A stretch of DNA of 64,000 nt from assembly GCF_011058255.1 (NCBI RefSeq), contig NZ_JAALFH010000065.1, positions 81,735 to 145,734 on the forward strand, given 5' to 3'. The DNA comes from Thioalkalivibrio sp. XN8. Its GTDB lineage: Bacteria > Pseudomonadota > Gammaproteobacteria > Steroidobacterales > XN24. Positions within the stretch are counted from its first letter, which is position 1. The number at the start of each line of letters is the position of its first letter. Under the pieces are notes generated by a model. That model ran no database searches. It worked only from the letters and a program-made list of their open reading frames with translations, and was not told where the DNA came from. A program made the position numbers and the translations under genes. Shown one piece after another: positions 8,086-23,202 of the stretch.

Positions 8086-9047
8086 TGAGCCGTGTACTGT
8101 TGATCGCCGACCACGACGGCAAGACCCTGAACACCGGCATCGCCCGCACGGTGGCCTGCGCGCGCCAGCTGGGCAACGTGCACGTGGCCGTGTTCCATGC
8201 GCCCGACGGCGACGCGCCCTGCGCTGCCGCCGCCAAGCTCGACGGCGTGTCGCGCGTGCTGTCTGTCCGCCACGAGGCCAACGGGGCGCCGCTGGCCGCG
8301 GTGCTGGCGCCGCAGATCGCCAGGCTGGCCGCCGAGCACGAGGGCGGCTATGACTACGTGCTCGCGCCCTCCACCACCTTCGGCAAGGACGTGCTGCCGC
8401 GCGTGGCGGCGCTGCTCGGCGTGCCGCAGGTATCCGACCTGATGGAGGTGATCGACGCGCGCACCTTCAAGCGGCCCATCTACGCCGGCAACGTCATCAC
8501 CACGGTCAAGGTGCCGGAAGGCATCCCGGTCCTGGCGACCGTGCGCATCGCCTCCTTCCAGGCGGTCGGCGAAGCCGGCGAGGCGCCCATCGTCGCGGCG
8601 CAGGCCGAGGCAGAGCTGCCGACGCACAGCCGCTACCTGGGCCTCGCGGAGTCCGGCGGCAGCGACCGTCCCGACCTGCAGAGTGCGCCGCGCGTGGTCG
8701 CCGGGGGCCGAGGCGTGGGGAGCAAGGAGAACTTCGAGATCATCTTCAAGCTGGCCGACAGGATCGGCGCCGCGGTAGGCGCCAGCCGCGCGGCGGTGGA
8801 CGCCGGCTACGTGCCGAACGACATGCAGGTCGGCCAGACCGGGAAGATCATCGCCCCGGACCTGTACATCGCGATCGGCATCTCCGGCGCCATCCAGCAC
8901 ATGACCGGCATCAAGGACGCCGGCTGCATCGTGGCCATCAACAAGGACGGCGACGCGCCGATTTTCGAGGCCGCGGACTTCGGGCTGGTGGGGGATTTGT
9001 TCACGCTCCTGCCGGAGCTGGAGAAGGCGCTCGACGCGGCGGGCTGA
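8085..9047 (+). CDS. etfA: Electron transfer flavoprotein, alpha subunit
   Basis: FAD-binding subunit of ETF, 320 aa. Seen: the C-terminal FAD domain with [34 protein letters not shown] and [16 protein letters not shown]. The ATG at 8085, overlapping the etfB stop, is preferred over the GTG three bases earlier because of the classical TGATG coupling arrangement. It receives electrons from acyl-CoA and branched-chain acyl-CoA dehydrogenases and delivers them to ETF-QO. Confidence 0.96.
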
Positions 9048-12929: not shown

Positions 12930-15836
12930 TCAGGGCAGCGGAATCGGCTGGCTCGTACCCATGCCCGGGCCCAGCACCAGCGCATTCTCGAGCACCCGCA
13001 TGGCGCCCAGCTGCGCGGCGCGGAAAGCCGGCGCATGGGCGAACAGGATCACCTGGCCGCGGCCGATACGCTCGCGCGTCACCCAGGCCGAGGAGGAGAT
13101 CCGGGTCCGGGCCTCCGGCCACAGCAGGCCCGACATGCGGACCCTGAGCTCCTGTCCCGCCGGCACCGGCGCCCAGTTCAGCGTGGCCGCCTCGGTGTCG
13201 GCCGGGTTATAGACGCCGATGCGGAACGGGGCATCCACCGGGAACGCCGCCATCAGCACCGGTGACCTGGAGAACAGCACGGGCAGCACTTCGCCCGTGC
13301 CGGCCGCCAGCCAGTGCTTCGTGTCCACGCGCGTGGCCACGATCGCCCCCGAGGGCATCAGCATCGACTGCCACTCGTCGTTGCGCTTGCGGGCTTCGGG
13401 CTCGGGCAGCTCCCCGGCCTCGAGCCACGGGTAGTCGAGTTCCGCCGTGGCTGCATGGCCCCAGGTCGCGGGCCCGTCGGGCACCGGCTGGGCTGCCAGC
13501 CACTCGCGGTGCAGGGTGTCCTGGTACTCCGCCAGCTCCTCGTCGATCACCGCCTCGAGCGGGCGCGTTTCGACCAGCGGGTCGTCGCCGTCCATCAGCG
13601 CCCGCGCCGAGTTGCCGACCGCCACCAGCGTCCCGCCGGCCCGCACCCAGTCCTCCAGCGCGGCACTCAGCCCGGCCGGCAGGGCGCTGCGGCCCCAGCG
13701 CTCCGGCAGGTAGATGACGTTGTAGCGGCGCAGGTCGAAGGCGCCGATACGGCTCTCGTCGAGATGGCTGTGGCGGATGCCGAGGCGATGGTCGAGCGCA
13801 TACCAGGTGGCGCCGAAGTCCAGCATGTTGGTCATGCCGCGCGACACCAGCGCGATGTTGGGCTTGACCAGCAGCTCCCATTCGCGTCCGCCGAGGTCGG
13901 CCAGGTCGCCGGGCGCCAGGCCGTGGCCGAGCGCCAGCAGCGGCAGGCCGAGCTCGGCTGCGACGGTGTGGGCGTCGGCCTGCCAGTCGGGCCGGTCGCG
14001 GTTGTCGTCCAGCGTCACGGCGATGGACCCGAGCGGGAGCGGCTGGCCGTCGAGCTGCGAGGCCTTGCGGCTCGCGCGCACGAAATAACCGCGCTCCATC
14101 ATGCGGCCGGCGAAGGCCAGCGAGCGATCGTCGGCGCCGGACACCGCCACCGCGATGGTCGCCGGGCCCATGGCCGGCGCAGCAGGTGTGGCTACCGGCG
14201 CGGCCAGCTCGACCGGCTCCAGGCCGCTGTCGAGGTGCTGCGGCACGGTCAGCGCCTCCAGCCCGAACATCATGGTGATGTTCCAGCCGGTCGTGTCGTA
14301 GATGGTGCTGCGCCCTTGCTTGAGCACGCGCTCGCGCTCGTTGGCCAGCGCGGTATCGGACATGCGCGGATCGAACTCGAACATCGCGGCCAGCAGCCGC
14401 CCCTCGGGCTGGCGGTTACGCAGCACCAGGCTGCCGGCCGGCAGGTCCACGCCGCGCAGCTCCCGCCCGAGCTGGTCGGTGGCGCTGCCGACCCGGAGCT
14501 GGCGCGTCAGCCGGTGCACTTCGAACCCCTGGATGCGGGCCAGGTCGAGCAGGTTGTCGAGCCGGCCCTGGTTATCGGTCGGCAGGATGACGAAGCTGCG
14601 GCTGCCGTAAGGACCGCGGGCCGAGCTGACCTCGGCACGGTCCGTGGCGAAGGCCTCGAGCAGGTTCCCGCGCTCGCGGCGCAGGGTCTCGAGGTTGGCG
14701 AAGGTCGAGATCACCTGGTGGTGGACAGACTGCCGGTAACTGATCAGCAGCGAGTGCCGCTGCACGCCGTCCTCGGCCAGGCGCGCCTGTTCATACAGGA
14801 TGCCCTGCGAGCCGCGCAGGGCGGCCCACGCGTCGGTGTAGCCCGGGTACCAGTCCTCGTGCCACTCGCCGGTGTAATAGGGATAGCCGTAGCGGTCGAA
14901 AGCCCGCGCCTGGTCCGCGGCAAAGACCTGGCCCATGGGACGCCGATACGGCGGCAGGTGCGGGTTGTGCGGTTCGCGCGCCGGCGAGAACAGGTAGGTA
15001 TCCTGCGCGCCCATTTCGTGGGCATCGACCAACAGCAGCGGCCGCCACTTGGCGATCTCGGGGATGCGGCCGCGGGTCTCGGGATGGCGCGCGTAAATCC
15101 AGTCGCGGTTCAGGTCGAACAGGTAATGGTTGCCGCGGCCGAAGGGCCAGTAGCCGGTGTGCAGCACCGACTGGTCGTCGACATTTGGCTGGGTGCCGCG
15201 CGACTCGGCCAGGCCCTTGATGAAGCGGGCGCGACCGTCCGGGTTCATGTTCGGGTCGACGATGACCACCAACTCTTCCAGCAGCTCCCGAGTCGCTGCC
15301 GAGCGGTCCGCCGCGAGATGGTGGATCACGGCCAGCGCGGCGTCCGAGCCGGAGCTCTCGTTGCCGTGGATGGAATAGGCGAGCCAGGCCACGCCGGGCA
15401 GGCTGTCGATCAGCCGCGCGCGCTCGGCGGCGCTGGTGTTGCGCGGGTCGGCCAGCGCCTGCATGCCGGCCTGGACCTCCTGCGCCCGGGCCAGGTTGGC
15501 CGGCGTCGAGATGACGAGGTAAAGGAGCGGCCGGTCCCCGTAGCTGCGGCCGTATTCGACCAGCTCGACCCGCGGCGAGGCGTCCGCCACCGCCCGCGCA
15601 TAGGCCACCACCTGCTCCGACGTGGCCGTGCGCTGCCCCACGGGAAAGCCGAGCAGCTCGTCCGGCGAGGGCACGGCCGGGTCATGGTCGGCGCCGGCCG
15701 GGTAGATGTCGCGGCCGTATTCAAGGCCGGGCAGCGGCGACGGCGCCAGGCCGGGATAGGGGGTCTGCGCCGCAGCGGGCAGGCCGGCAAGCAGCGCACA
15801 TCCCGCCAGCACGAACAGGGTTCTGGCTCGGCTCAT
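12930..15836 (-). CDS. Secreted M14-family zinc carboxypeptidase-like protein
   Basis: 968 aa with a Sec signal peptide (residues 1-23, ending AAAQ) and an N-terminal M14 domain. Zinc ligands seen: HGNE (H157, E160) and the later His in DAHEMG (H273). DLNRDW (241-246) gives substrate-binding residues, and the expected catalytic Glu is in GILYEQA (about 349). The remaining 600 residues include a possible glutamine-amidotransferase-like or beta-rich region (YNVIYLPERWG, GGTLVAVGNSA) that I cannot assign firmly. Such long M14 proteins are common in protein-degrading gammaproteobacteria. A TAAAAT box lies 34 bp before the ATG. crcB follows after 14 bp. Confidence 0.87.
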   Translation of the reverse strand: MSRARTLFVLAGCALLAGLPAAAQTPYPGLAPSPLPGLEYGRDIYPAGADHDPAVPSPDELLGFPVGQRTATSEQVVAYARAVADASPRVELVEYGRSYGDRPLLYLVISTPANLARAQEVQAGMQALADPRNTSAAERARLIDSLPGVAWLAYSIHGNESSGSDAALAVIHHLAADRSAATRELLEELVVIVDPNMNPDGRARFIKGLAESRGTQPNVDDQSVLHTGYWPFGRGNHYLFDLNRDWIYARHPETRGRIPEIAKWRPLLLVDAHEMGAQDTYLFSPAREPHNPHLPPYRRPMGQVFAADQARAFDRYGYPYYTGEWHEDWYPGYTDAWAALRGSQGILYEQARLAEDGVQRHSLLISYRQSVHHQVISTFANLETLRRERGNLLEAFATDRAEVSSARGPYGSRSFVILPTDNQGRLDNLLDLARIQGFEVHRLTRQLRVGSATDQLGRELRGVDLPAGSLVLRNRQPEGRLLAAMFEFDPRMSDTALANERERVLKQGRSTIYDTTGWNITMMFGLEALTVPQHLDSGLEPVELAAPVATPAAPAMGPATIAVAVSGADDRSLAFAGRMMERGYFVRASRKASQLDGQPLPLGSIAVTLDDNRDRPDWQADAHTVAAELGLPLLALGHGLAPGDLADLGGREWELLVKPNIALVSRGMTNMLDFGATWYALDHRLGIRHSHLDESRIGAFDLRRYNVIYLPERWGRSALPAGLSAALEDWVRAGGTLVAVGNSARALMDGDDPLVETRPLEAVIDEELAEYQDTLHREWLAAQPVPDGPATWGHAATAELDYPWLEAGELPEPEARKRNDEWQSMLMPSGAIVATRVDTKHWLAAGTGEVLPVLFSRSPVLMAAFPVDAPFRIGVYNPADTEAATLNWAPVPAGQELRVRMSGLLWPEARTRISSSAWVTRERIGRGQVILFAHAPAFRAAQLGAMRVLENALVLGPGMGTSQPIPLP

Positions 15837-15895: not shown

Positions 15896-17326
15896 CTAAC
15901 CCAGCAGGCGGCGCCAGGCAGCGTATCGCGCTTCGAACGCGGCGGCCGGCTGCGGCTGGAAGCGCGCATCAGCTGACCGTCGCGGCCGCGGCGCGCCGAG
16001 GAGCCGCGCCACGCCCGACGCGGTGGCCTCCTGGTTATCCTGCGGCCGGACCACGGGCAGGCCGGAGAGATTGGCCAGGCGCTGGCACAGGCCGTCCAGC
16101 TGCGACAGGCCCCCGCTCGCCCGGATCTGCTGCGGCCGCGATTCTCCGTCAGCCGCCAGCATGGCCTCGAGGTTCGCCTGCAGCAGGAAGACGATGCTCT
16201 CGATCACCGCCACCGCCTCGTCCTCGAGTCCCGCCTCGGCGCTGAACCGCACCGGGCAGTCCGGCCGCCAGAAAGGCGAGCCCAGCCCGCCGACGCCATT
16301 GACGAACAGCGGCGGCGTCGGCGCCTCGGCCAGCCAGCGCGGCAATCCCTGCAGCAGCGACTCCACGGAAGTGGCGCGCGCGTCGGCCAGCCATTGCAGC
16401 GCTGACCCCGCGCCGTTCACCGTGCCTTCGAGCACGCGCAACTCGCGCCCCGGCTCGGCCCAGGCGATGCCGCGCAGCAGGCGCGGGTCAGCCGCCGCCG
16501 GATCGGCCACGATGCGCTGCACGAAGGCGCCGGTGCCGAGGTTCACGAACAGCGTGCCGGGACCGGGTTCGTCATGGGCGAACAGCGCCGCGGGCTGGTC
16601 GCCCGCCAGCACCTGCAGCTCGGCGCGCAGCTGGCCCCGCCGCAATGCGCCGAAGCGGCCGCGCCCCGGCACGACGCGCGGCAGGCAGGCGCGCGGCACC
16701 CCGAAGGCGGCGAGCAGTTCCTCCGACCAGTCACCGCCCTCCAGGTCGTACAGCAGGGTGCGAGCGGCGTTGGCCGGGTCCACGACACAGGGGCCCTCCT
16801 CCAGCAGCCGGCAGGCCAGGAAGCTCGCCAGCGGCCCGCAGCACAGCCGTCCCTCGCGCGCGGCCGTCGCCACGGCCGGGAGGTTGTCCAGGCACCAGCG
16901 CAGCTTGCTGGCGCCGTAATGCGGCGAGATCACTAGCCCGGTGAGCCGGTGGACGCGCGCGGGCTCCAGGCCGAGTCCTTGCAGCCAGCCGGCATGGCGC
17001 CGGTCGCGCCAGGACAGCACCGGCGCCAGGGCCGCCCCGCTCGCCCGGTCCCAGCAGGCAATGCTGGAGCGCTGCACCGCCAGGCCCGCGACGACGCCGT
17101 CGGCGGCCCGCACGCCGGCCGCGGCGACGACCTCGTCCACGGCAGTGCAAACCGACTCGACCAGCGCCTCGGCATCGTGCTCCACCCAGCCCGGCCGCGG
17201 CTCGCGCGTGTCCAGCGGCGCCTCGGCGTTCGCAGCCAGTTCCCCCCCGGCGTCGAACAGCAGCGCCTTGCTGGCATGACTGCCCTGGTCCAGGGCGAGG
17301 AAAAAACTCGGGGTCGGGTCCGGCAT
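15896..17326 (-). CDS. FGGY-family carbohydrate kinase, glycerol-kinase-like
   Basis: 476 aa from the chosen ATG (MPDPTPSFF). Actin-fold sugar kinase with ALDQGSHASKALLFD (phosphate-1 loop), SWRDRR, VNLGTGAFVQ (phosphate-2 loop), GLGSPFW and an adenosine-site block beginning RASGGLSQ. These resemble glycerol kinase more than xylulokinase. The catalytic Asp is probably that of AGDQPAALF. The substrate is not certain: glycerol kinases normally read CxYGTG where this protein has VNLGTG, and no glycerol facilitator or regulator is nearby. A longer frame (to 17365) is open, but the ATG at 17326 lies directly before the conserved N-terminal strand. Confidence 0.8.
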   Translation of the reverse strand: MPDPTPSFFLALDQGSHASKALLFDAGGELAANAEAPLDTREPRPGWVEHDAEALVESVCTAVDEVVAAAGVRAADGVVAGLAVQRSSIACWDRASGAALAPVLSWRDRRHAGWLQGLGLEPARVHRLTGLVISPHYGASKLRWCLDNLPAVATAAREGRLCCGPLASFLACRLLEEGPCVVDPANAARTLLYDLEGGDWSEELLAAFGVPRACLPRVVPGRGRFGALRRGQLRAELQVLAGDQPAALFAHDEPGPGTLFVNLGTGAFVQRIVADPAAADPRLLRGIAWAEPGRELRVLEGTVNGAGSALQWLADARATSVESLLQGLPRWLAEAPTPPLFVNGVGGLGSPFWRPDCPVRFSAEAGLEDEAVAVIESIVFLLQANLEAMLAADGESRPQQIRASGGLSQLDGLCQRLANLSGLPVVRPQDNQEATASGVARLLGAPRPRRSADARFQPQPAAAFEARYAAWRRLLG

Positions 17327-17375
17327 CTTTGCATGATGCCAGAGCCCGACCCCGCGCAGTTGCAAGCCTCCTGGC

Positions 17376-20039
17376 TTACTCGGTGATGGTGATTTCCTCC
17401 ACCAGGTTGGCCGCGATGTCGGCCTCGGTGAACCAGAGCTGGCGGAAATCCTTGTTGGAGTACCGCAGGTTCTGGTCGTTGAAGTACGGCGAGTCGGGGT
17501 CCACCGACTGCGAGTAGCTCACGAGGCCGAAGCCGCGCGGACCCGTGTCCGTGAACTCCAGGCCGAAGTGCCAGCTGGTGCCGCGGGCCATGTTCCACCC
17601 GCCGCCCGGCGTGGCCGACAGGCCGGCCGTCTGCGGGATGGTGACCGACGGGATGCGCGGCAGCAGCGTGTCCTCGGCCACCGGCGAAGTCACCACGCCG
17701 ATGGCGTTGAAGGCGCCGTCGAGGCTGCCGTCCCCGCCATGCCAGGGGAACGACGGCCCCAGGTTCACCGGCGTGCCGCCCGGCGGCACCCCGCCGGAGG
17801 GCTGGTAGTACTGGACCGTGCCCAGCGGAGCGTCGTAGGCGATGCCGCCCTGGTCCAGGCGCTCCAGCCCGTCGGCCAGCGACACCAGCATCGGGTCGTT
17901 CGCCAGGTCGACGGGATCGGCCGGCGCCGGTACGCCCGGCGTGGCGACCGGGTCGGCCGGGTCGAAGGGCGCGGTCAGGTGGCTGCCGAACTTGCTGCGG
18001 TAGTCGACGATGAACACGCGGAACACGTGCGCGCCGACGCTGTCCTGCTCGTACACGCCGTCCCAGTTGGCCAGCACGGTACAGGCCGGAGCCACGCTGC
18101 GGCTGCCGCCCGCGCTGAGGTTGACCGGATCGGCGCCCACGGCCGCGCAGCGCGCCCGCAGCTCGTCGAGGAACTCCTCGGCGTACCAGCTGCGGTTGTT
18201 GTGGATGACGCTGATCAGGTCTTCCGCCCCGAACAGCCCGTCCTGGCCCGCCGGCGGGCTGTCGGCGAAGCCGGGGTCGGTCGGGTTCAGCAGCATGTAG
18301 GTGCCGATGCGGGTACGCGGGTTGAGCGCGGTCCGCTCCGGGCCGAACAGCGGCGAGAAGCCTTCCAGCGGCGCATTCACATTGGTGGACCAGAAGCTGT
18401 CGTTGGAGTTCTGGGTGAAGTCGCTGCGCACCAGCTTGGGCCGGTCGTCGTAGGGCACCAGGCCCTTGCAGCGGCCGGGACCGGGGATCCAGTCGTCGCG
18501 CACGCTGTTGCCGTCCAGCAAGGTCAGGCCGGCTTCGAACAGGGCGTTGAAGGCCGGGCTGGCCGCCCGCTTGGCTTCGATCACGCCCAGCGCGATCGGC
18601 GACAGGTTGGGCACCGAGCTGCTGTCGGTGTAGTAGGCGTTGCCCTGGTCGTCGGCGTAGGTCGTGTTGACCCACAGCGTGCCGCGGCACTCGCGGAAGA
18701 CCTGCTCGAACTCGGCGAGGTCGCGCGCCTGGCCCATGCGCAGCCAGGTGTCGAGCAGGCCGTTGGTGTCGGCGTTGGCGTCGCGGTAGGTGTAGGCCGC
18801 CGGCTGCCCCAGGGAACCGGGGCCGCCCCAGGGCGCCAGGCCGCCCTGGGTGACGGCGTCGGCCGCCAGCATCGGGCCGTACTCGGAGAAGTACATGGTC
18901 CGCGCCACCCGGATCGGGTCGGGCGCGCCCACGTTCACCTCGATCTCGAAGGTCTCGGCGGTGATGGGCTTCTCCTCGCCGCCCTTGATGTAGGTCAGCG
19001 GGTCGCCGTCCTTCAGGGTGAGCTCGTAGAGCGTGAAGCGGCGGCTGGTGCTGACGGTGTGGGACCAGCCGAGGTTCTCGTTGAAGCCGATCAGCGGGAT
19101 CGGCGTCGCATGCAGGCCGGCGCCGCGGTAGTTGAGGTAATCCGGCACGGTGATCTGGCTCTCCCAGAAACGCCGCACGCCGGTGTAGGGGAAGTGCGGG
19201 TTGCCCAGCAGGGCCCCGCGCCCGTTCTCGCTCAGCTCCGCGCCGACGCCCCAGGCGTTACTGGCCAGGCCGGTGTCGACATAGTCTTCCCGCGCGCCCG
19301 CATGCCGGCGGGCCAGCAGCGGGGTCTGCTCGAAGATGTCCATCACGGCCGGGTCCTGGACGGCGGCGACCGGGACCGGCGTCGGGTCCTCGCCCGGCGG
19401 CACGGCGATGAAGACCGCGCCGGTGGCGAAGAGGTCGCCGCTGGCGAACTGCGCCACGATGCGATAGTGCGCCACCAGGTCCTCCGGCTCGATCTCCTGC
19501 ACCCACGGCCCGTTGCGGCACTCGGGGGGCAGGTCGGCGGGATCGGTCTCGCGCACGTACTTGTTGTAGCCGGCGGTGAACCCCAGCACCATCGCCCGCG
19601 CCTCGTCCGACATCGCGGCGAATTCCTCGGCGGCGCCGCTGCGGATGCGCTGCGCCAGGTAGCTGAAGTCGTTGATGATGTGCAGGTTGCCGGGGCCCGG
19701 GCCGAAGTACTTGGCCCGCTCGCTGCGCGCCTTGACGAAGGCGTCGGCCAGGTAGCAGACCAGGTCCTGCGCCTGCGCGTAGCCGCTGCCGAAGGCGGCC
19801 GACTCGAGGTTCTCGGCCCGAATGTGCGCCACCCCGTTGGTGGTCCGGCGAATCGTGGCCACCGGGCCGTCGGGGCCGGCATTGACGCGGTCCGGCGGCG
19901 GGTTCAGGTTGACGGTCGGATCCCTGGGGATATCCACGCCGTCGCAGCCGGCGACCAGCAGCGCAGCAGCTGCCAGGTGCGCCATGCCGAGCAAACGGAC
20001 GCGACGACGCGCAGGAGTGCGCGAGTTAGGTGAGTTCAT
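17376..20039 (-). CDS. Penicillin-acylase-family (S45) N-terminal-nucleophile lipoprotein
   Basis: 887 aa with a lipobox (LLVAGC, Cys32), so probably anchored in the outer membrane or periplasm. The family is synthesised as a precursor, cleaved autocatalytically, and hydrolyses amide bonds of acyl compounds. Seen: alpha-chain block NGVAHIRAEN, then the nucleophile Ser260 in LASNAWGVG where the beta chain would begin, NPHFPYTG, and the beta-chain VNTTYADDQGN region. Members include penicillin G acylase and the acyl-homoserine-lactone acylases PvdQ and QuiP; the substrate here is unknown. The ATG is preceded by AGAAGAGGCG and by a good promoter at 20103-20131. Confidence 0.88.
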   Translation of the reverse strand: MNSPNSRTPARRRVRLLGMAHLAAAALLVAGCDGVDIPRDPTVNLNPPPDRVNAGPDGPVATIRRTTNGVAHIRAENLESAAFGSGYAQAQDLVCYLADAFVKARSERAKYFGPGPGNLHIINDFSYLAQRIRSGAAEEFAAMSDEARAMVLGFTAGYNKYVRETDPADLPPECRNGPWVQEIEPEDLVAHYRIVAQFASGDLFATGAVFIAVPPGEDPTPVPVAAVQDPAVMDIFEQTPLLARRHAGAREDYVDTGLASNAWGVGAELSENGRGALLGNPHFPYTGVRRFWESQITVPDYLNYRGAGLHATPIPLIGFNENLGWSHTVSTSRRFTLYELTLKDGDPLTYIKGGEEKPITAETFEIEVNVGAPDPIRVARTMYFSEYGPMLAADAVTQGGLAPWGGPGSLGQPAAYTYRDANADTNGLLDTWLRMGQARDLAEFEQVFRECRGTLWVNTTYADDQGNAYYTDSSSVPNLSPIALGVIEAKRAASPAFNALFEAGLTLLDGNSVRDDWIPGPGRCKGLVPYDDRPKLVRSDFTQNSNDSFWSTNVNAPLEGFSPLFGPERTALNPRTRIGTYMLLNPTDPGFADSPPAGQDGLFGAEDLISVIHNNRSWYAEEFLDELRARCAAVGADPVNLSAGGSRSVAPACTVLANWDGVYEQDSVGAHVFRVFIVDYRSKFGSHLTAPFDPADPVATPGVPAPADPVDLANDPMLVSLADGLERLDQGGIAYDAPLGTVQYYQPSGGVPPGGTPVNLGPSFPWHGGDGSLDGAFNAIGVVTSPVAEDTLLPRIPSVTIPQTAGLSATPGGGWNMARGTSWHFGLEFTDTGPRGFGLVSYSQSVDPDSPYFNDQNLRYSNKDFRQLWFTEADIAANLVEEITITE

Positions 20040-20164: not shown

Positions 20165-20839
20165 TCAGGGCAGCTCGAACAACCCGGCCGCGCTGCGGAC
20201 GCCATCGGAAATCGCGACCTCGAGCTTGCCCCCGGGCGCCGCCACGATCACTTCGCCGTCGCGGTCGAGGGCCAGCACCGAACCCGTCGCCGGGTCGCGC
20301 AACCGCAGCACGACGATCGGGCCGACATCCCAGCGGACCCTGACGCGCTCACCCGGCATGGCGGCGATCCGGACCGCCTCGCCACCGGTCAGCGCCGCGA
20401 GCAGGTCCGCCTTCGAGATGGTCGCCGCGCGCGTGACCATCAGGCCGTCGCCGCCATCGAGTTCCAGGGCCGCCAGGCCGGCGGCACCGGCGCTGCCGGC
20501 AGAGACCGGGAGCAGGAAACGTCGCAGCGGCTGGCCCGGGACGGCCGCGAGCGACGCCTCGCCGAACCCCAGCTCGAAGAGCGGCTGGCCATTGTCGTCC
20601 AGGCCGCGCAACCGGTACTGGGCGGGCTCCCCGTGGCCGCCGGCGGCGGCTCCCGCCCCCGGCAAGACCGCCTCCAGCGCCGCGTCCGCATCGCTGAACC
20701 AGCCACCGACGAGCACCGTCTCCTGGTGGACGACCTGGACCGTCGGCCCCGGACCGTCGGGCGTCGGCTGCGGGGCGCAGGCAACCATCGCCAGCACCGC
20801 GGCCAGGCCTGCGCCCAGCCTCCGGGCCCCGCGTCTCAT
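20165..20839 (-). CDS. Small lipoprotein homologous to the C-terminal domain of the adjacent metzincin
   Basis: 224-aa protein with a signal peptide and lipobox-like LAMVAC (Cys21). After a Pro-rich linker, residues 40-224 align by eye with residues 597-788 of the upstream metalloprotease. Shared landmarks: YRLRGLDDNGQPLFEL against NRLRGVTADGEALFDL; RVRWDVGPIVVLRLRD against RLSWDVASSPVALVRD; DGEVIV against SGELRF; ISDGVRSA against LSDGLRTR. It lacks any protease motif. Its ATG overlaps the protease stop (ATGA), so the pair is translationally coupled. I do not recognise the domain. A role as partner, substrate-binding module or inhibitor of the protease is inference only. Confidence 0.8.
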   Translation of the reverse strand: MRRGARRLGAGLAAVLAMVACAPQPTPDGPGPTVQVVHQETVLVGGWFSDADAALEAVLPGAGAAAGGHGEPAQYRLRGLDDNGQPLFELGFGEASLAAVPGQPLRRFLLPVSAGSAGAAGLAALELDGGDGLMVTRAATISKADLLAALTGGEAVRIAAMPGERVRVRWDVGPIVVLRLRDPATGSVLALDRDGEVIVAAPGGKLEVAISDGVRSAAGLFELP

Positions 20840-23202
20840 CGGACCTCCTCGAAAACCTGGAGCCGCGTACGCAGACCGTCGGACAGCACCAGCTCCGGCT
20901 CGATAGCGGCCGCCGTGGCGGCATCGAAGCGCAGCTCGCCGCTGCGCCCGATGCCCACGACCTGGCCGGAGCGGCGATCGCGCACCAGCGCCACCGGGCT
21001 GCTCGCCACGTCCCAGCTCAGGCGCAGGCCGCCGCCCGGCAGGCGCTCGCCGCCGGCCCGGCTGCCCGGGGCTTCTGCCGCCAGGCCGGGCTCGCCTGCC
21101 GGCAGCCCCCCGCGCGCGCCTTGCAGCGCCACGCCCTGCGGCGTGATCAGCTCGATGCGGTCCAGGGTCGCCGCCTGCGCGGGCGACAGGGGCACGAACC
21201 AGGCGAACTGGCGCTCGGCCGGGTCGGCCGCGTGGGGCACGGCATCGCCGTCGAAGGACAGGTCGAACAGCGCCTCGCCGTCTGCTGTTACGCCGCGGAG
21301 CCGGTTCGGGCCGCCGGCTGCCGGCAGCACCGGCCGCGCCTCCAGCTGGAAAGCGGGATTCAGCTCGACGCCCTGGCTGTCGATCCGCCCCCACACCAGC
21401 AGGCCGGCGGTCTCCGTGCCGCGGTCCGCCAGGGTCTCCCCGCCGTCGCCGCCGACGGCGAGCGGATCGTTGCGGCGCCATTCGAGGATGCCGCGATAGG
21501 TGTAATCGCTGGTCCAGCGCGGGCGACAGTAACCCATGTAATCGAAGTAGCCGGACGGGCCGCGCAGCGAATCGTCGTCGATGTGGTAGCCCGCCTCGCC
21601 GACACCGCCGTCGGCATAGGGATAGGACGCGTCCACGCCGGTGATGTCGTCGCCGCAGGGACTGTGGCTGCGGCCGAGGTTGTGCGCCAGCTCGTGGGCC
21701 ACGGTTTCCGAGGCCCGCGGCAGGTTGTCGTAGGACAGGCCCGTGCGGAACGAGCTGGACGGCGAATTCGGCCGGTAGGCGATGCCGGCCACGGGGATGC
21801 CCGGCACGTCCGGCACGATGCCGTGATAGTAGCGGTCGCCGGCGTTCTCCGCGGTGCGAACGGCCTGCAGGTCGCTCAGCAGTCCCTCGATGTCGTCGAT
21901 GTCGCTCAGGTCACGGTCGGTGACGAAAGGCGTGTCGCGCAACTCCCGCTCGATGGTGTTCACCGGCAGCCACAACCGCGTGTTGGCCAGGAAATCGTCG
22001 ATGTTGTCCGGGAAGATCTGCCCGGTCGCGCTGTGGCGGGTCGCCTGCACCGGGATGAACAGGACCCGCAGCGGCGCCAGTGCCTCGACCGCGATGGGCG
22101 CCTGGCCCGAATCGCGGGGGAAGCGGGTGTTCTCGCGCGAGGCCAGGTTGAGCTCGCCGTCCGGGTCGACCAGGGCCTCCACGGCCAGGCCCGGCTGGAC
22201 CTCGTCGGGCGTCAGCTCGATGTTCCAGGTGAAGTTCTGCGCCGACAGGAAGGGCTCCAGGGGCACGCTGCCCGTGCGGGCCGGCAAGGTCCGCTCCCAC
22301 AGCTGCGTGCCGTCCCGGAACAGCCGCACGCGGACATCGGGTGTCAGCGTGTTGGTCCGCGAGGCGGTCACGATGACCCGCAACAGGCCTTCCCGGCCGG
22401 CCACCGCAGGAATATCGCCCGCTTCCGTCTGGCTGGCCTGGTTGAGCTGCACGCTCTCGATCGACAGCTCGAGCGCCGGGAGCGCCTCGGCCGAGAAGCT
22501 CACGGTCCCGACCCCGGCCAGGCTGGCGCGGACCTCGTTCAGGCCCTCCTGGTCGCCGAGGGTCCAGGCGTCCAGCTGGGCGATGCCGTTGGCACCGCTG
22601 GTGGCGAAGCCGCCGGTGACGGAGCCGCCGCCCTGCACGACCGAGAACTCGACCGTAGCCCCTGCCACCGGGTTGTCGAAGCTGTCGGTGACCAGCACGG
22701 CGGGCGGCTGGGTCACCGGCAGGCCGGCGTCGCCGGCCTGCTGCTGCACGCTCGCCGGAGCGAGCGCCGCGGCGGGACCTGCCGCCGCGGTGGCGGTGAA
22801 ACGCACCTCCCCGGAGGCGCCCTGCGCGGTGGCGACGAGCGAATACTGGCCGGCCTGCGTGCCCAGCACCCAGGAATTCGGGCGTGCCCGGCCGTCCGCG
22901 CCGGTGGTCACCGTGGCGGGCGACACCGAGGCGCCGGCCTGCTCCGGCTGGAAACTGACGCTGACGCCGGCCGCGCCCGCGCCGTTGCCGTCGACGACTC
23001 TGACACCGGGGACCTGCCCGACCGGCTGGCCGACGACGCCGGTGTTGCTGCTACTGCCGTCCGCAACAAGCTGGAGTACCGGCGTGCTGCTGCTGCCGCC
23101 GCCACCGCCGCCGCCGCAAGCCGCCAGCACCAGGGCCGCGGCCAGGGCCGCCAGTCGCGCCGCCAGGCGCCCTCGGGAACGGAACATCGTCGCCTCAGTC
23201 AT
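20836..23202 (-). CDS. Metzincin-type zinc metalloprotease lipoprotein with Ig-like repeats
   Basis: 788 aa. Lipobox LAAC (Cys29) followed by a run of seven glycines (residues 30-36). Residues 40-140 and 145-240 are two Ig-like (bacterial Big-type) repeats, each with a conserved G-A-(D/N)-G turn. Residues 245-375 look like a third beta-sandwich. The protease core runs from about 375 to 580, with the zinc motif HELAHNLGRSH (503-513) and a Met-turn candidate in FDYMGYC (M556). A C-terminal domain (597-788) recurs as the separate lipoprotein encoded next. The ATG at 23202 is preceded by AGAGGTGA. Predicted to be a surface- or periplasm-anchored endopeptidase; the substrate is unknown. Confidence 0.85.
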   Translation of the reverse strand: MTEATMFRSRGRLAARLAALAAALVLAACGGGGGGGSSSTPVLQLVADGSSSNTGVVGQPVGQVPGVRVVDGNGAGAAGVSVSFQPEQAGASVSPATVTTGADGRARPNSWVLGTQAGQYSLVATAQGASGEVRFTATAAAGPAAALAPASVQQQAGDAGLPVTQPPAVLVTDSFDNPVAGATVEFSVVQGGGSVTGGFATSGANGIAQLDAWTLGDQEGLNEVRASLAGVGTVSFSAEALPALELSIESVQLNQASQTEAGDIPAVAGREGLLRVIVTASRTNTLTPDVRVRLFRDGTQLWERTLPARTGSVPLEPFLSAQNFTWNIELTPDEVQPGLAVEALVDPDGELNLASRENTRFPRDSGQAPIAVEALAPLRVLFIPVQATRHSATGQIFPDNIDDFLANTRLWLPVNTIERELRDTPFVTDRDLSDIDDIEGLLSDLQAVRTAENAGDRYYHGIVPDVPGIPVAGIAYRPNSPSSSFRTGLSYDNLPRASETVAHELAHNLGRSHSPCGDDITGVDASYPYADGGVGEAGYHIDDDSLRGPSGYFDYMGYCRPRWTSDYTYRGILEWRRNDPLAVGGDGGETLADRGTETAGLLVWGRIDSQGVELNPAFQLEARPVLPAAGGPNRLRGVTADGEALFDLSFDGDAVPHAADPAERQFAWFVPLSPAQAATLDRIELITPQGVALQGARGGLPAGEPGLAAEAPGSRAGGERLPGGGLRLSWDVASSPVALVRDRRSGQVVGIGRSGELRFDAATAAAIEPELVLSDGLRTRLQVFEEVR

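Follow-up and report, generated by a model that had tools for sequence, protein, structure and literature searches.

Spi and the staphostatins are co-encoded inhibitors of cysteine proteases (SpeB and staphopain, respectively), and Spi resembles a propeptide. HagA is a free protein composed of the C-terminal adhesin domains of gingipains. To our knowledge, neither Spi nor a staphostatin nor any Bti or Bfi protein is a copy of the C-terminal domain of its protease. In Bacteroides thetaiotaomicron, three C10 proteases that are predicted lipoproteins are described as transcriptionally coupled to staphostatin-like proteins, and some of these staphostatin-like Bti proteins are predicted lipoproteins themselves (PMC3462683). 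For StcE, the M66 mucinase of E. coli, PMC8249670 describes a C-terminal module, X409, that binds mucin and is dispensable for catalysis.

The locus reported here lies in the window, i.e. the whole 64,000-nucleotide stretch of Thioalkalivibrio sp. XN8 DNA that was analysed. A 788-residue M66-like (StcE-like) metzincin lipoprotein, encoded at 20836–23202, is directly followed by the gene of a 224-residue lipoprotein (20165–20839) that is homologous end to end to the C-terminal domain (CTD) of the protease; all features given below are on the reverse strand. In StcE and in the window protease alike, an Ig-like domain is followed by the metzincin catalytic domain and then by C-terminal domains. 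The window protease differs in being a lipoprotein, in standing on Big_1 stalks and in having a second gene behind its own that encodes a free CTD protein; we know of no such partner for StcE. The likeness of the CTD to X409 is positional at best, as the aligned StcE range ends at residue 791 and X409 spans 797–898. With Bti/Bfi, SpeB/Spi and staphopain/staphostatin the locus shares a small protein encoded beside a secreted or lipoprotein protease, whereas the targets in those systems are cysteine proteases and the window protease is a metzincin. HagA offers a likeness in being a free form of protease C-terminal domains, but its gene is unlinked, is not known to be translationally coupled and belongs to an unrelated family. 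In the literature searched, no account of an M66-like protease whose CTD also exists as a coupled free protein was found among the matches listed.

The two lipoproteins

The basic anatomy is as originally predicted: two open reading frames of 788 and 224 residues, a zinc-binding motif at residues 503–513 of the larger product, a lipobox signal peptide on each and an ATGA stop/start overlap at 20836–20839. The protease, assigned from its reading frame, its sequence and its profile and structure matches, begins with a signal peptide to Cys29 (23116–23202). Behind it come a tether rich in Gly and Ser, a stalk of two Ig-like domains of the Big_1 family (PF02369, E = 2.5e-13; of the two matching stretches, residues 67–132 at 22807–23004 score highest), a further Ig-like domain, the metzincin catalytic domain and the CTD of about 190 residues. 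We take both signal peptides of the locus to be of the lipoprotein type, as each follows the lipobox pattern. The metzincin consensus HExxHxxGxxH is present as HELAHNLGRSH (21664–21696), with its three His and the Glu invariant in an alignment of 24 sequences, and DYMGYC downstream holds Met556 (21535–21537), a candidate Met-turn by sequence match and likewise invariant. In some relatives of the protease, Ser replaces the Gly of the zinc motif.

An AlphaFold model of residues 238–788, built on the same 24 sequences, covers the core and the CTD with a pLDDT of 88.9 and a pTM of 0.90; model residues 463–477, the inter-sandwich linker, fall below a pLDDT of 50. StcE (3ujz) was the first Foldseek match (E = 1.7e-10), and the two domain arrangements agree loosely (VIA Z 11.7, rmsd 7.8 over 346 residues). 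The catalytic part has a metzincin fold, superposing on ADAM-8 (4dd8) with Z 12.2 and rmsd 3.0 over 178 residues, and matched snake venom metzincins as well. Against the Pfam M66 family (PF10462) the window protease scored 12.3–13.8 bits, below the cut-off of 20.6, while all 24 rows of the protease alignment, the window included, matched at E ≤ 0.1 (best 2.1e-10); it is hence filed as M66-like only. The CTD itself (residues 597–788, 20839–21414) is modelled as two Ig-like sandwiches, A at about 598–695 and B at about 717–783. The impression that it belongs to no named family holds up in Pfam, where none of 38 CTD-family rows had a convincing match (best 0.0097), and a CTD-family profile found no solved structure in the PDB (best 0.12).

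The small lipoprotein, identified from its reading frame and by BLASTP, tblastn and profile comparisons, consists of a signal peptide to Cys21 (20777–20839), a tether of about 20 residues and the domain. It had been read as essentially the domain alone; end-to-end homology to the CTD upholds this, with the refinement that the protein adds the tether and a linker helix of its own. As its frame is open further upstream (a 438-residue ORF), the start at ATGA is inferred from the overlap, from an AGGAGGT Shine–Dalgarno-like site within the last protease codons (20843–20849) and from the signal peptide. A frameshifted or split gene was rejected on the grounds that a separate signal peptide, start and Shine–Dalgarno-like site belong to the small protein and that five genomes retain it (see below). 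Its AlphaFold model (pLDDT 80.8, pTM 0.70) likewise predicts two Ig-like sandwiches, A at residues ~40–137 (20429–20722) and B at ~156–222 (20174–20374), joined by a helix at ~143–151 (20387–20413). This helix is predicted in the free protein of the window, not in the CTD of the window protease, and the stretch aligned to it holds residues that are invariant in five free proteins. Searched against the PDB, the free-domain fold gave generic Ig/Fn3-like matches, none at E ≤ 0.001; a viral library returned one match (2.2e-5), an uncharacterised archaeal virus protein.

Homology, linkage and history of the gene pair

The resemblance between the small protein and the CTD, on which the original prediction was built, proved solid. 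BLASTP of the protease against the small protein gave 2e-8 (31% identity over 152 columns), and tblastn of the small protein in its own genome recovered the CTD at 8e-9, with no third match at E ≤ 0.001. The Smith–Waterman score against the CTD was 150. Shuffles had a mean of 44 (sd 8, maximum 103 of 2000), and 196-residue stretches taken elsewhere in the protease, seven in all, scored 31–68, although the last two reach into the start of the CTD. Built from 44 CTDs and none of the window genus, a profile found the small protein at E = 1.3e-28, while the best value among 2000 shuffles was 6.3 (for a database size of 100000). Similarity by chance through Ala/Gly-rich composition is ruled out by these shuffle comparisons. 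Finally, hhalign of the small-protein profile against a CTD profile free of any window-genus CTD gave 99.9% (E = 5e-33, 179 columns), so that a profile check for membership in unrelated families ends with the two segments matching each other. The structure check suggested at the outset agrees as far as it goes: both AlphaFold models have the same strand order, seven strands in sandwich A and seven in B, the comparison being one of strand order and not of superposed coordinates. On these comparisons the free protein is homologous to the two-sandwich CTD of the protease.

The searches for the free lipoprotein took in every genome of each sample. Among 97 relatives of the window organism, four matched, namely the three members of the window genus and one weak, unconfirmed case (G066, 7e-4). 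The search of 369 genomes of the class (E ≤ 0.01) gave two matches, the organism's own and a weak one (G350); in 296 genomes of the order eight matched, with the free gene present only in the three genus members, and in 299 genomes of the phylum only the own genome did. No plasmid copy of the free lipoprotein was found. A single-protein search of the contigs of named genomes gave no match, whereas a profile search yielded at least 68 loci with a protease relative, at least 31 of them titled Gemmatimonad-. CTD-type matches were present in at least 126 of 298 Gemmatimonadota genomes and, at E ≤ 1e-10, in 95 of 295 and 28 of 96 genomes of two further samples (the three samples overlap), with up to 32 matches in one genome. 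The free lipoprotein clade was found in at least two Gemmatimonadota genomes, G561 and G763. As the best 10 candidates per genome were scored in the wider searches (32 in the 96-genome sample) and some of the short frames were retrieved, more free genes may exist.

Genomes were to be searched for further pairs of protease and free domain, and five intact pairs in two phyla resulted. Three belong to the window genus, i.e. the window and both other searched species (G001, G002); the others are L157 in Gemmatimonadetes bacterium T3Sed10_83R1m (G561) and L196 in G763, of the same phylum. In G561 a second pair, L165, has a broken or misassembled small gene. The five intact free proteins form one clade (support 100/98) in a CTD tree of 53 rows, 52 of them different, for which an HMM coverage cut of 120 positions was used and the broken gene of L165 was left out. 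Correspondingly, a tree of the protease core calculated without the CTD (46 rows, 45 different, truncated proteases left out) places all six partnered proteases, and no others, in a single clade (100/96). A partner lies downstream of all six proteases of that clade, one of these partners being the broken one. Outside the clade, 39 of the 40 other rows had at least 700 nt of downstream sequence (38 different proteases, as L054 equals L192), and in 0 of these 39 did the same strand show a free CTD in the 1.5 kb behind the protease. Members of the free clade are thus seen only directly after a protease of one clade, in two phyla.

The junction is conserved along with the order. All five intact pairs have a start codon for the small gene in a 4-nt overlap with the protease stop, as ATGA once and as GTGA four times; in G763 the GTG is directly followed by an ATG that could serve as the start instead. 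Upstream of the overlap, three of the five small frames (window, G002 and G561) continue open, so that their start there is a predicted one. Inspection by eye showed a Shine–Dalgarno-like stretch close upstream in the window, G001, G002 and G763, and none close in G561. The pair is also intact in G002, though a neighbouring kinase/acylase block is missing beside it. The anatomy and linkage of the two-gene cassette we regard as close to certain, and the observation is stronger than first thought, in that the pair is a conserved cassette.

The history of the pair turned out differently from the first description. A "duplicate of the protease's own domain" does not fit as worded: the free protein belongs to an older clade that also includes Gemmatimonadota proteins, and the AU test, at a borderline p = 0.049 and with lnL lower by 46.7, disfavours a recent duplication inside the genus of the window. 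It does not reject a topology in which free proteins and partnered CTDs group together (p = 0.131). Most simply, the cassette has a single origin, in one duplication followed by specialisation and by transfer of both genes between phyla, in either direction; alternatively, the pair may be old, with many losses. Among the three genus members, most change in the small gene falls at third codon positions, and pairwise dN/dS is 0.54–0.56 versus 0.39–0.50 for the protease, the method being simple, the divergence high and the GC content 71%. The third-position bias together with this ratio indicates that the small gene is kept as a protein; judged by these figures it appears maintained yet fast-evolving, faster than the protease. 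In place of the CTD residue W604, which is kept in 85% of 47 CTDs (one duplicate, L192, left out), the five free proteins have R, S, R, R and G; the absence of this tryptophan from all five argues for a specialised protein and not an idle copy.

Free CTDs of other kinds were encountered as well. In an uncultured Pseudohongiella (L065), a second free CTD, of the other subtype, follows a protease on the same strand, at a distance of about 116 nt if the ATG at 8620 is the start. It has a signal-like N-terminus, no cysteine for a lipobox, and 64% identity to the CTD of the adjoining protease. Four metagenome-assembled genomes (L153, L158, L202, L203) carry free CTDs with N-termini that look signal-like by eye, and no second match to the protease or CTD profile was found within a few kilobases around them. 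The domain can therefore be useful away from a protease, and free CTDs probably have more than one origin, of which not all gave rise to a coupled pair. Short or partial CTD frames were noted at L154, L155, L156, L162, L197, L199 and L200. Tandem protease copies occur in relatives at L101, L064, L068 and L163.

Possible roles of the small lipoprotein

The evolutionary linkage suggests a dedicated partner. Regulator, decoy and co-receptor, the roles proposed originally, cannot be told apart from sequence. The reading that we tentatively favour, though we would put it somewhat below an even chance, is that of a dedicated accessory subunit of a surface protease, probably concerned with docking or substrate capture. 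Terminating ribosomes would re-initiate at the overlap, by which both proteins would be made in step, and both lipoproteins would be anchored at the outer membrane, where we presume them to be placed on the basis of the +2 rule. The partner would then act with the protease physically, its CTD-like module and linker helix docking to the protease or presenting the same ligand, and might in this way bring the protease, on its stalk, to its substrate. We put docking before inhibition on account of StcE, whose C-terminal module binds mucin without being required for catalysis. Still, the protease stands on a multi-domain stalk and the partner on a short tether, so contact between the two is not obvious.

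Inhibition is a strong rival to the accessory subunit, even if we consider it unlikely in absolute terms. A dedicated inhibitor or immunity protein would bind the protease, either in the periplasm or on the cell surface, and so spare the cell's own proteins. The small gene has the adjacency and overlapping start of a co-encoded inhibitor and is exclusively linked to its protease, and the coupling of B. thetaiotaomicron C10 lipoprotein proteases to staphostatin-like proteins is a precedent (PMC3462683). However, related proteases outside the clade do without a partner (0 of 39 testable rows), the protein resembles a non-catalytic domain and not a propeptide or a known inhibitor, and with the protease gene first the inhibitor would not be made first.

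A lectin- or adhesin-like surface binder, which would recognise the same ligand as the protease CTD and work beside the protease with no contact to it, would suit those free CTDs whose N-termini look signal-like and around which no protease was found, as well as the binding of mucin by the X409 module of StcE alone (PMC8249670). The gene order and the start overlap common to all intact pairs fit a partner better, and with the CTD tryptophan lost, ligand binding may differ; we hold this reading to be less probable still than inhibition. SusE/SusF and HagA provide the model for such a surface binder beside a protease.

Very unlikely, in our judgement, is an export or assembly helper, a pilot or chaperone that takes the protease to the outer surface. 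The gene overlap and the lipoboxes are compatible with it, and sandwich B has middling matches to C-terminal domains of type IX secretion (RgpB CTD 5ag8, Z 7.6, 2.6 Å over 65 residues, tied with many Ig folds; 8gl6, Z 6.7, 2.6 Å over 68 residues), but middling Z values are common among Ig-like folds. Sequence-family searches gave no hit. Moreover, related proteases outside the clade lack the partner, and none of the six neighbouring window ORFs scanned was named a secretion gene. That the small gene is a leftover of tandem duplication with no present role, as the tandem protease copies in relatives and the broken partner in G561 (L165) might suggest, is scarcely credible for a gene that is intact in five genomes of two phyla, forms one clade, and has a lipobox, an overlapping start and third-position-biased change.

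Beyond the accessory-subunit reading, a further proposal is that targeting or activity of the protease is set by a heteromer with an evolved, membrane-anchored CTD paralogue, in a coupled cassette passed between phyla. We consider this doubtful, if less so than inhibition; if true, the protease would be controlled in a way that differs from both propeptides and unrelated inhibitors. In Gemmatimonadota, M66-like proteases with a CTD are common, yet their post-catalytic region has no convincing Pfam family. The branch in which the CTD is also made as a coupled lipoprotein is a natural handle on the role of this domain, and it offers a clean case in which a protein has apparently acquired its partner through the copying of a domain of the kind that it carries itself.

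Further free CTD genes

Free copies of the protease C-terminal region (CTD) were also found at other loci. In an uncultured Pseudohongiella (L065, 1988-9168), a gene for a 2171-aa LRR protease is followed downstream by a free CTD with a signal-like N-terminus. The genome titled Gemmatimonadetes bacterium T3Sed10_83R1m (G561) holds a second pair (L165, 5796-6490), in which the free gene is broken and continues into another gene-like stretch, which we take to be an AMP nucleosidase-like gene. The break is attributed to either a deletion or an assembly joint.

Protease arrays and CTD expansions

Very large expansions are exemplified by G577, G569 and G574, with 32, 31 and 21 CTD matches per genome, respectively, many of which fall inside long M66-like protease frames. 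Isolate names (RHO, SB) of genomes with large expansions suggest that these are sponge symbionts. The record of locus L062 (G569) is titled Gammaproteobacteria bacterium RHO2_bin_50, whereas the genome was sampled within a phylum defined by G561, titled Gemmatimonadetes; title and taxonomy are thus in conflict. Separately, M66-like protease genes stand in tandem at L101, L068, L064 and L163, two to four per array, and the fourth protease gene of L163 is divided between two frames.

Neighbours of the window pair

Two genes lie downstream of the pair, at window positions 15896-20039. One encodes a glycerol kinase-like carbohydrate kinase of the FGGY family, the other a member of the penicillin amidase family in which a lipobox was recognised by eye. 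Both genes adjoin the pair in one further species of the genus (G001) and are absent from that position in the other (G002). Window 12930-15836 encodes a protein of 968 aa that contains an M14 zinc carboxypeptidase domain and is kept in all three genus members searched.
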